In this document: positions 1,753 to 28,296 of the stretch, in pieces
Layout: each line of letters starts with the position of its first letter
Position numbering within the stretch: position 1 is the stretch's first letter
Assembly (NCBI GenBank): GCA_016342495.1
Contig: JAEIOG010000024.1
Location: 1 to 57,349, forward strand
DNA length: 57,349 nucleotides
DNA from: Phycisphaerae bacterium
Lineage (GTDB): Bacteria; Planctomycetota; Phycisphaerae; Sedimentisphaerales; SM23-30
Direction: 5' to 3'
Program-made: the position numbers and the translations under genes
Notes under the pieces: generated by a model
What the model saw: the letters and a program-made list of their open reading frames with translations, nothing else
Databases searched by the model: none
What the model was told of the DNA's origin: nothing

Positions 1753-4700
1753 TCACTTCATCCAATTGCTTATCATTATAGCAATATCATCGACATCGAC
1801 ATCATTATCGCCATCAAGGTCGGCTCCATCGCAAGAGCCACAATCGCTGTTGAGCCAACTGGAAGAAATGCCAGCGAAATCTTCTAAAGCTTTGTCGCCC
1901 ATAAAACGATTCTGGACATTAATTCTTAAAGTCGCCTGAATTGAAGCATCAGCAAAATCAGTGGCTTTGATAGTAAATTCATTCAAGCCGACATATTCAT
2001 CACCTGGGATACCGCCCAGATTACCATCTTCGTCAATTGTCAGCCATTTAGCTTCGCCAACAACAGTAAATGCCAAAGGTATACCATCAGGATCATTAGC
2101 ATCATCGGCAAGGCTGGCTGCGTATGAGCCACCTTCTAAAGCATCAACCTTAACAATAACAGAATCATCAAATGTTGGCAACTGGTTGGCTTTGATAGGT
2201 GAAAGAAATTCGCCATCAATAATCGAACGAGTTGGGCTGTCAGGGCCTTGCCAGGCAACAGAAAGATGATCACTGCCGCCACCTTCTTTATGCAAAGCAC
2301 CAATGAGGTATTTCCTGCCGGCTTTAAGATAAATACTTGCAGATTTCTGGAAAGGTTTGCTATCGAAATTATCAGCACTGGTATAACCAACAACCTGAGC
2401 TATCAATTGAATATTATTCATATTCATATTAGAGCTTAGATAAAGCTGACTTTCATCGTCACTAGCGATCCAGAAGGTATAATCACCTGAGGTTCGAGGT
2501 TTTAAGAAACCTATGATCCTGCTGCCATAATTGTCACCGGAATTTTGCGGAGCCTTAAAGCTGGTAAGCTTTTCTTCGGAATCTGGTGCTTCATTGTACT
2601 TTGGAGAGCTGGTCAAATCAGCGACAGAACTGCCGTTAATATTATTCCATACCTGGCGGGTAATAGAGCAGCCAACCAAAACATCAATATTACTGGTAAA
2701 CATATTGTTATAATTATTTTTCACTGTATAGAAAAATGAATCTTTACCATCAAAGCCAGCATTTGGCGTATAGCGATATGATCCACCAGAATAAGTAATG
2801 GTGCCATTAGCTGGCTGGCTAAATCCAACAAAGGTTTTTGAACCAGTAAAGCTATAGTCATTAGCAATGACATTTGGAAGCACTACGGCGGTATCAACAT
2901 CAGTTGTAAAGTTTTCTGCGACTAACTCAACCATATTCCAATCGGGCAGGTCACTAAGAGAATTTTTAGCGGTAGCACTTACACCATAATCCCAGCTAGT
3001 GAAAAATGGGCTTAGGTCATAGCCAACCACACGTGAAAACCGAATCATAAATTGATCCCATTCTTCCTGATCATTAGAAGGAAGTGCAGAAGGATTATTA
3101 GCAATATCATCATGATAGGTCTGGAATGTCGCTTTGAAAGCTTCCCAGCCAAAGGCAAATCTCAGCTGAGCAAACATGGCAAGTCTTTGGCCCAGACCGG
3201 CTTGGCTGAAACCGCCAACTGCGACAGTAGATTGATATTCCTCTACACGTGATGCCGGATCCCACATTCTACCCCAGCCACCGGCAGATTTGCCGGAATC
3301 ACAAGCGGCTTCGATACCTACCATAGAAAAAATATTTACGGTTACTTCGCCGGTTCTGCCATCAGTCCAATAGCCACTCTGGTGCATGTGGCCAAGTTCA
3401 TGATATGAACCCCAGCAGTTGCCAGCTTCCAGCGATGGTAGATTGCCAAAATTCCAGTTCCAGGCACCAATAGGATAGCCGGCATAGCCTCCACCCCATG
3501 CGGTCTGAATCATGTTATACATACGCGATGGTCTGGTTCTTGCACCAACAAGGCCAGCAAGATCATCCTGGGCATAATTACCCTGCTGCCAAAAACGAGC
3601 TAAACCTTCAGCATCATCAATATCTATCACCTGATATTTCTGGCAGGTAAAGATAACATTATCACAATGGAATTCTACGTATGGAGCTGGTCTTTTGCGG
3701 ATTTCATTTACCCATTGTTCATTAGTATTTTCGCCTAAGACGAAATATGGCATTTCTATAGCGTTGGCGATAGTAACGGTAAAAGCACCCGGAACGGTAT
3801 CTTTAGGAATTGTAATATAAACCGGCCCGCCAAAAGCATTAGCTGCCAGGGTTGTATCGCTTTCAATTTCAAATTCACGAACTGTGCCAAAAGGCATACG
3901 CGACCAGCTGTCACGACCAGAGATATTATTCCAGTCGCCACTAATTTGTACTTTCATATTTTTATTGGTAATAGGCGAAGAAGTAGTTACCGTGACAACT
4001 TCACCCGGAACGGCATAAAGGCCGGTACTGAGCCAGATATTGCTGTCATTGCCACGAGTATCTTTGCCTTCTTTGTCTACATTGAAATCAAGGGTTTTAG
4101 TAACACGCTGAGCATATTCAGGGATCTGGCCCCAGACAGCTTCAGCGGTTCTGTGTGCAACAGTTTCTTCCACTGGGGTATTTAGCAGAACCTGACATTC
4201 ACGGGTCAGCATAGCCTTTTCAAAATCATTGCGAACTGGGGTTGATGGGGTAGGATTAATCGATTCAATCAATTTATAATATTCGACATCAAGCTCAGCC
4301 TGCAGAGAATGGCCTTCCGGCAATACAAGATAAATTCTACCAAGAACAGTACCTGCAATATTTTTTTGCGTAGTGCTGTAGGCCGAAGGATTCTTAAGAA
4401 CATTTAAGACATCTTTGGCCGTGGTTTGGCCGGTAGCTGCAGTAATCGGTGTTGTACTGCCGTAACTTTCTTTTGTTAAGCCAATACCTGCATGAATGAA
4501 AATCTTATTGGTTGGCATATCCGGGGTGTCTTTGCCCCACCACCAGTCATAACCAACGCCTGTATCACAAAGCATCAGAGCTCCGCCACCTCTGGCGAAA
4601 TCTACCAGAGCATTAGCATAAGCATCAGAAAAATTGTTTCCCGGCCAGCCAACAATTAAATCAATATCACTTAAATCACCATTATAACTGCCAATATTAA

Positions 4701-26587: not shown

Positions 26588-27826
26588 TCATTCGCTTTCA
26601 ATAGCGGCCAGCATTGCCGGGTCATCGTCGGAACCATCGATTTGCAGGAGGTTTTTACCTGCCCAGCTGATTGCCAGAGCTCCAAGTGGAGCGGTTATTA
26701 AAATACTCAAAACCGCAACAGCAAGAATCAAATCCCCCGGAGCGGTATCCAAACCCTTTCTTTGCATCTCAACTAAGGGAACAGCGCCGATGGCGGCCTG
26801 AACAGTTGCCTTGGGCAGATAGGATATCCCTACGAAAACCTTTTCTTTGGTAGTAAAATTACTTTTGAGAAGGCACAGCTGGGTGCCTATACTGCGACCG
26901 ACAAGGCCCAACAAGATCACCGCTGCCCCGGCAAGGCCAGCATTTCTGGCAACGGGAATATTGACCTGAGCACCAACAAGAGTAAATAATAATATGGAAG
27001 CAAAAACCCATATCTTACTTAATTTACTGGAAATTTCATGGGCGGCATGTTCGCGTTTTTCCAATATTATAAATCCAACAGCCATTATCGCCAGCAAAGA
27101 TGCAAAAGGAATTATAATAGTTTTTTCAAAATGGTGCAGCACAATAGCCAACCCTAAAAGTATTAAAACCCGTTTTGTTGCGCGAGGATTAAACCTGTCG
27201 AATAATTTATATAAAACCACCCCTAAAACCAACCCTAAAGCTATTCCGGTAATAACTGAAACCGGAACAGTTCCAATTTGCTTAACAATATTAACATTTG
27301 AACCGGTGTACATCCCCAAAAATGAGCTGAATAATACAATAGCAACGGCATCATCACAGGATGCCCCGGCAAGAACCAGCGTAGGTACGGCACGTTTGGC
27401 TCCGCGTTTTTCCTCAATAAATTTAATCATCAAAGGCACAACAACAGCAGGCGAAACAGCAGCAAGAATCGCCCCCAGCATAGCTGCTTCCAACCGGGTG
27501 AGTTTCAGCACCATCGGGGCAATTATGGTAATAACCGCAACTTCACAAAAACAAGGTATAAAGGCCATCAAAACCGCTCTTACGCCCACTTTAGCCAGAG
27601 CTTCGCGGCTGATTTCAAAACCAGCCCGCAATAATATCACCACCAGTGCAATTAATCTTAAATCGGATCCTGCAGTTTGCAAATCGGTGGGCAGTTTATT
27701 TAATGCATAAGGGCCTAAGGCAACGCCCAACAATAACAGACCAACTAAACCGGGCAATTTTATCTTTCTTACCAGCCAATCAACCATAAGACCCAATAGT
27801 ATAAGTTCAGCAATTCCAAATGCCAT
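26588..27826 (-). CDS. CPA-type Na+(K+)/H+ antiporter under a fluoride riboswitch
   Basis: A 412-aa integral membrane protein with about 12 hydrophobic segments, of the Kef/NhaP-like cation:proton antiporter superfamily. It has LVRKIKLPGLVGLLLLGVAL at the N-terminus, ILLRAGFEISREAL, the LAAVSPAVVVPLM segment and ASCDDAVAIVLF, whose tandem Asp pair is characteristic of electrogenic CPA antiporters. It lacks the C-terminal RCK/TrkA domain of true Kef systems. AAAGG precedes the ATG at 27826. A fluoride riboswitch with terminator lies directly upstream, so expression should rise when fluoride enters the cell. Na+/H+ antiporters are a known minority class in fluoride-riboswitch regulons. The transported ion cannot be deduced. 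Confidence 0.9.
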   Translation of the reverse strand: MAFGIAELILLGLMVDWLVRKIKLPGLVGLLLLGVALGPYALNKLPTDLQTAGSDLRLIALVVILLRAGFEISREALAKVGVRAVLMAFIPCFCEVAVITIIAPMVLKLTRLEAAMLGAILAAVSPAVVVPLMIKFIEEKRGAKRAVPTLVLAGASCDDAVAIVLFSSFLGMYTGSNVNIVKQIGTVPVSVITGIALGLVLGVVLYKLFDRFNPRATKRVLILLGLAIVLHHFEKTIIIPFASLLAIMAVGFIILEKREHAAHEISSKLSKIWVFASILLFTLVGAQVNIPVARNAGLAGAAVILLGLVGRSIGTQLCLLKSNFTTKEKVFVGISYLPKATVQAAIGAVPLVEMQRKGLDTAPGDLILAVAVLSILITAPLGALAISWAGKNLLQIDGSDDDPAMLAAIESE

Positions 27827-27878
27827 CTATAAAACCTTTCTATTACTAAGCGATTATATGGCACTGTAATAGGCGCAT

Positions 27879-27990
27879 AAAAAAACCGCTATGTCAGCGG
27901 CAACTTCAAACACACCTGCCGCCAGTTAATACCAAAACAGCAGGAGTCATCAGCCCAAAAGGCGGTTATAAGGAGAACTCCATCTCCATA
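27879..27990 (-). ncRNA. Fluoride riboswitch (crcB motif) with terminator
   Basis: Read on the minus strand, the aptamer runs from about 27987 to 27936. It begins GGAGATGGAGTTCTCC (stem 1, loop containing GGAGT), followed by TTATAACCGCC, TTTT and GGGCTGATGACTCCTGC. The loop bases GGAGT can pair with ACTCC in GATGACTCC to form the pseudoknot that defines the crcB motif. Conserved GGNGATGG and GCTGATGA..CC elements match the known Pseudomonas syringae and Thermotoga aptamers. Downstream, CCGCT/AGCGG plus seven T (27900-27879) form a terminator. ACCGCC in the aptamer or the later GGCGG stretch can take part in the switch. It controls the antiporter gene 53 bases further on. Confidence 0.9.
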
Positions 27991-27996
27991 AACTGT

Positions 27997-28024
27997 ATTA
28001 TACGATATAATCTGGTATTGTCAA
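27997..28024 (-). promoter_or_regulatory. Consensus sigma-70 promoter of the fluoride-riboswitch transcript
   Basis: On the minus strand, perfect TTGACA (28024-28019), 16 bases, perfect TATAAT (28002-27997). The predicted start, about 27990, falls at the first bases of the aptamer. Confidence 0.85.
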
Positions 28025-28043
28025 GTATGACATAAGAGTGGCC

Positions 28044-28225
28044 AGGGCTAACGCATGAAATTTAATTTTGTCATTCCCGCGAAGGCGGGAATCCAGTTTT
28101 CGAGCCAAAATCAGGGTTTGCATTTCCTGGATCCGGTGCCTGCGCGGGGATGATAAGGTCAACTTTTTTGGTTTAGCATCGATTTTGAGCCACAAATAAG
28201 GATGAAAATTTCATGCGTTAGCCCT
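28044..28225. mobile_element. 182-bp MITE-like element with perfect 20-bp terminal inverted repeats
   Basis: The ends are AGGGCTAACGCATGAAATTT (28044-28063) and its exact reverse complement (28206-28225). Inside is a nested imperfect inverted pair built on the widespread TCATTCCCGCGAAGGCGGGA repeat (28071-28096) and its diverged partner (about 28126-28152). It encodes no protein; a 65-codon frame across it is accidental. No clear target duplication was seen. It sits between the divergent promoters of the antiporter and the glycosyltransferase. Confidence 0.75.
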
Positions 28226-28296
28226 GCAAGATGGGCAGTTACCAATAACCACTGAAAAATCTCACTCACCTAATTTTTAAGCCAAAAAGATTCTAC

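Follow-up and report, generated by a model that had tools for sequence, protein, structure and literature searches.

A fluoride riboswitch in this Phycisphaerae genome stands in front of a gene for an NHA2-like cation/proton antiporter, and we somewhat favour the reading that this antiporter, induced by fluoride, serves in place of the standard fluoride exporters. In the standard account of fluoride resistance, Fluc or CLC-F exports the ion and antiporters assist; Na+/H+ antiporters with fluoride riboswitches have reportedly been described since the work of Baker et al. in 2012. Judged from its sequence, the locus, which lies within a window of 57,349 nucleotides (the whole stretch of DNA analysed), is a genuine pair of fluoride riboswitch and antiporter of a known class. 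The new part is the distribution, as the arrangement itself is already known; we found nothing in the literature on antiporters replacing fluoride exporters.

The initial annotation had described a fluoride riboswitch with a consensus promoter, a stem-1 loop pairing with ACTCC, a terminator and a CPA-type antiporter, and our searches bear out each of these elements (Table 1), with the antiporter narrowed to the NHA2-like type. The aptamer matched the Rfam model over its full length, against a gathering score of 34 bits; it is the only RF01734 match in the whole genome and has the top bit score among 246 genomes sampled from the same phylum. The promoter is the sole exact match to TTGACA-N15-19-TATAAT in the 57-kb window, where shuffled sequences gave an expectation of 0.13. 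The GGAGU of the P1 loop is complementary to ACUCC at 27943-27947, as the pseudoknot needs, and ACUCC is invariant across the 22 aptamers compared. A MAFFT alignment of the aptamers misplaced P3, so the Rfam model was used in place of a covariance model of our own.

Along the minus strand the order is promoter, aptamer, GGCGGCAGG, hairpin with U-tract (27901-27879 in the pattern scan), GAAAGG and the ATG at 27826. Because terminator-like sites occur at close to the chance rate (3 found, 2.5 expected), support for the terminator comes from its position and from folding; the isolated platform (segment 27879-27930), with a fold z-score of only -1.2, is of ordinary stability. Separately, a 184-bp element at 28043-28226, 18 bp upstream of the riboswitch promoter, has perfect 21-bp terminal inverted repeats (CAGGGCTAACGCATGAAATTT) and resembles a small non-autonomous mobile element.

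Table 1. Features of the riboswitch-antiporter locus (window coordinates) and positions of dynamin-like genes at other fluoride riboswitch loci.
Feature	Position	Strand	Support
Sigma-70-type promoter TTGACA-16-TATAAT	27997..28024	-	12/12 consensus; predicted start at the aptamer
Fluoride riboswitch aptamer, full length	27934..27996	-	RF01734, 60.4 bits, E 2.6e-14
Aptamer P1 hairpin GGAG-AUGGAGUU-CUCC	27972..27987	-	Sequence and Rfam alignment
Predicted switching strand GGCGGCAGG	27915..27923	-	ViennaRNA folds, aptamer enforced or free
Intrinsic terminator, GCCGCUGACAUAGCGGU then U-tract	27879..27903	-	Pattern scan and folds
Likely ribosome-binding site GAAAGG	27835..27840	-	8 nt before ATG; sequence
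NHA2-like (SLC9B-like) cation/proton antiporter, 412 aa	26588..27826	-	PF00999, 150 bits
Dynamin-like loci	L017, L018, L019, L024, L031; L087:644-2428, L110:599-2443, L123:1822-2478
Dynamin-like loci, continued	L101:20-1933, L124:346-2100	-

In fluoride riboswitches the aptamer is stabilised by an Mg-fluoride complex. ViennaRNA gives GGCGGCAGG two alternative partners, the 3' edge of the aptamer (CCUGCUG, approximately 27936-27944) or UUGCCGC (27897-27903). When the free leader is folded, CUCCUGCUGU at the aptamer 3' edge pairs with GGCGGCAGG and UUGCCGCU is left for the terminator; when the P1, P3 and pseudoknot strands are enforced in the leader to 27878, GGCGGCA pairs with UGCCGCU as an antiterminator, whose strand is overlapped by the 5' arm of the terminator. 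This modelling suggests an ON switch in which the aptamer 3' edge competes for the strand that otherwise makes the antiterminator. The equilibrium fold of the full leader to 27826 still favours the terminator, so the switching model is a co-transcriptional argument, short of proof. In the antiporter leaders L108, L120 and L121 the terminator takes in CUCCUACU of the aptamer itself, so that the two overlap directly as is usual, whereas the window terminator, compared with those of L108 and L121, has no direct overlap with the aptamer and GGCGGCAGG would relay the signal. A strong terminator was found in 20 of the 31 leaders whose aptamer adjoins the antiporter gene, a search in which the short hairpin of the window was not scored as strong.

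The antiporter is the next gene on the same strand after the riboswitch, and the Na_H_Exchanger match covers its whole transport domain, with only sub-threshold matches in NCBIfam. By sequence the closest solved structure is NHA2/SLC9B2 (7p1i, E 4e-45), with MjNhaP1 far behind (4e-9). An AlphaFold2 model made with 36 homologues (mean pLDDT 86.8) gave VIA-align Z scores of 46 against MjNhaP1 and 43 against bison NHA2, at 2.4-2.9 A over about 385 residues; since both NhaP and NHA2 structures fit this closely, the NHA2 label rests on sequence. NHA2 is distinguished from the electrogenic NapA by E214, R431 and T461 around D277/D278 (PMC8850199). Aligned with these five residues, in the order given, are E95, R311, T341, D158 and D159 of the window antiporter, which together with K339 make up its cation site. 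The site residues are kept in 37 of 37 riboswitch-linked proteins where covered, one row being truncated at the C-terminal positions, and therefore electroneutral cation/proton exchange is predicted, and nothing points to conversion into an anion carrier. An antiporter recast to carry anions was rejected on the same ground, that no site residue has changed in the riboswitch-linked members, and no alignment column cleanly separates linked from unlinked members. The antiporters at L075, L082, L087 and L113, of a Thermodesulfobacteriota/Deltaproteobacteria type, continue past the transport domain with a C-terminal extension of about 90 residues, which in L087 has no Pfam match.

Neither CrcB nor a CLC of any type was found anywhere in the genome (5.42 Mb in 221 contigs, 95% complete), which gives support to the earlier guess that the antiporter might be the sole fluoride defence. 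The same annotation held antiporters to be a minor class in fluoride regulons, and this fails in the present phylum: among its fluoride riboswitches with a readable downstream gene, about 11 precede an antiporter, about 12 CrcB and 2 CLC-F. There are three PF00999 proteins in the genome, and the window antiporter is the only one with the riboswitch in front. A SAM riboswitch (RF00162, 65 bits, L002:378-491, minus strand) lies near another PF00999 antiporter of this genome, on contig C139.

The pattern of exclusion was suggested by the 246-genome phylum sample, in which CrcB is present in 1 of 11 genomes having a riboswitch-controlled antiporter of either type and in 149 of the 235 others (Fisher 0.0004). 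Two follow-ups were made. Within the order of this genome, CrcB is found in 0 of 9 NHA2-like carriers and 48 of 89 non-carriers (Fisher 0.003; 0.001 when stratified by family), in a sample that overlaps the phylum sample by six genomes; the statistics are given without species-tree correction. In carriers from other taxa CrcB occurs in 2 of 50, both Anaerosolibacter; these 50 were all 34 riboswitch-linked loci plus 16 unlinked relatives of our choosing, and the count covers carriers only. CrcB is also absent in carriers that have no riboswitch, and in many genomes CrcB and an NHA2-like antiporter are both missing. Most carriers are draft metagenome assemblies, which makes the absence of a small gene weaker evidence. 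An anaerobic sediment lifestyle could drive both the riboswitch-antiporter pattern and the CrcB absence; lifestyle as the only cause of that absence was set aside, as the exclusion still holds within one order, family by family.

Of the 50 carriers from other taxa, 37 have CLC genes. The fluoride signature GREGT/GNNLI, of which GNNLI is published as the CLC-F signature (PMC11139923), is absent from the 11 shorter CLCs examined in carriers, most of which read GxEGP; both GREGT and GNNLI are present in the riboswitch-driven CLCs L016 and L027. CLC-F as the exporter of related carriers is disfavoured by those 11 sequences, with the same restriction to shorter CLCs.

Riboswitch linkage extends well beyond this phylum. 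Among the best 80 relatives from a scan of GTDB genomes, which come from many phyla, 34 have an RF01734 match upstream on the same strand; in 31 of these the aptamer adjoins the antiporter gene and in three there is one intervening gene. The linked loci belong to Bacillota, Nitrospirota, Thermodesulfobacteriota, Myxococcota, Spirochaetota, Bacteroidota, Planctomycetota and Bipolaricaulota, and no CrcB or CLC genes were found in the neighbourhoods of the 80. The linked antiporters are not one clade, as a quick tree needs 19 changes (28 for shuffled labels), and with linkage scattered over the tree in this way it must be old, or have been gained and lost often. In the tight clade of the window protein (six rows) the riboswitch is found on the window gene only and is absent at L039-L041, L048 and L051, so that fluoride control is not universal. 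At L046/L047 (G298:C223), from the same order, an NHA2-like gene linked to the riboswitch shows up as two overlapping matches, one of them containing a TGA, which points to a pseudogene or to an error of assembly.

Genes for dynamin-like GTPases (PF00350) also recur directly under fluoride riboswitches, at ten loci (Table 1), some of them in one operon with an NHA2-like antiporter. Pfam confirmed PF00350 at seven of the ten, and L019, L024 and L031 were assigned by sequence likeness. L124 has three fluoride riboswitches, at 2142-2213(-), 2326-2404(+) and 3987-4063(+), which serve a dynamin-like gene, an NHA2-like antiporter and a NapA-like antiporter. Our literature search found no link between fluoride riboswitches and dynamin.

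How an antiporter might stand in for an exporter can be outlined from the behaviour of fluoride itself, which comes in as HF that dissociates within the cell and therefore builds up according to the pH gradient; exporters, for their part, need the proton-motive force (PMC11139923). After entry as HF, an Mg-fluoride complex would stabilise the window aptamer, as in the rest of the class. According to the folds, the aptamer 3' edge would then be sequestered from GGCGGCAGG, which would make the antiterminator, and RNA polymerase would read through into the antiporter gene. The product, to go by its site residues, would be an NHA2-like protein that exchanges Na+ (or K+/Li+) for H+ electroneutrally, and this exchange would shift the pH gradient governing F- trapping inside or remove an acid load, with the result that the cell would need no Fluc or CLC-F. 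Depending on the direction of transport, the exchanger may reduce F- trapping by moving protons inward or ease acidification by moving them outward. We infer that the stand-in most likely works by proton/cation exchange altering the pH gradient that loads HF, and that direct export is less likely. Since this genome and nearly all carriers checked are without CrcB, they may rely chiefly on the antiporter for fluoride defence, and from the CrcB exclusion we argue that antiporters replace exporters in these lineages. A broader proposal, which we put forward tentatively, is that NHA2-like antiporters are a separate and widespread type of fluoride defence that replaces Fluc and CLC-F, either through the pH gradient or by moving fluoride.

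Three other accounts were weighed. The antiporter could be an accessory to pH and ion homeostasis that counters acidification by HF, fluoride itself being removed by an unrecognised exporter. The intact cation site agrees with this, as does the report that Na+/H+ antiporters are the next most frequent riboswitch-linked class after exporters, for pH homeostasis (PMC11139923), but in such a role the antiporter should occur together with CrcB or CLC-F, and the opposite is observed; the genome also lacks an exporter of known type; we judge it unlikely. That the NHA2-like family itself exports fluoride, for instance HF/F- with coupling to H+ or Na+, and so is a third exporter type, would fit the mutual exclusion with CrcB across taxa and the wide riboswitch linkage, and direct transport keeps some plausibility because CLC-F, itself a member of a chloride transporter family, was at first misannotated (PMC7266159). 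Nevertheless, every riboswitch-linked member keeps the E/DD/R/K/T site where covered and linked members are not cleanly split from unlinked by any column, whereas in CLC-F the filter changed, and direct export appears more doubtful still. A relic or mis-targeted riboswitch, with the aptamer decaying or the antiporter controlled for reasons unrelated to fluoride defence, is very improbable: the nearest homologues have no riboswitch and the terminator is short and statistically weak, but the aptamer is near-consensus, tops the 246-genome sample, has a perfect promoter, and the pairing with antiporters recurs in many phyla.

Replacement of the exporters, if carriers truly have none, would be a third route to fluoride tolerance, and if true would give a concrete reason for the presence of antiporters in fluoride regulons. 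The leader agrees with the fluoride (crcB motif) riboswitches of RF01734 in its full-length aptamer, P1, P3, pseudoknot complement, terminator downstream of the aptamer and predicted ON-switch logic. The protein shares with NHA2/SLC9B2 (7p1i, 7b4l; PMC8850199) 33% identity over about 385 residues, the fold, the DD motif and equivalents of E214, R431 and T461; it differs in being bacterial, in having no N-terminal TM -1 extension and in that its exchange activity is predicted. Unlike Fluc/CrcB and CLC-F it matches PF00999 only, and not PF02537 or PF00654. The NapA-like antiporters at L008, L010, L015, L020, L025 and L026 are likewise PF00999 proteins under fluoride riboswitches, in genomes mostly without CrcB as for the NHA2-like carriers, but belong to a different CPA branch, are closest to NapA structures and have ND instead of DD. 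As in the Na+/H+ antiporters already associated with fluoride riboswitches (PMC11139923), the gene lies directly behind the riboswitch; here the antiporters are typed as NHA2-like, and their genomes are without CrcB and, where examined, CLC-F.
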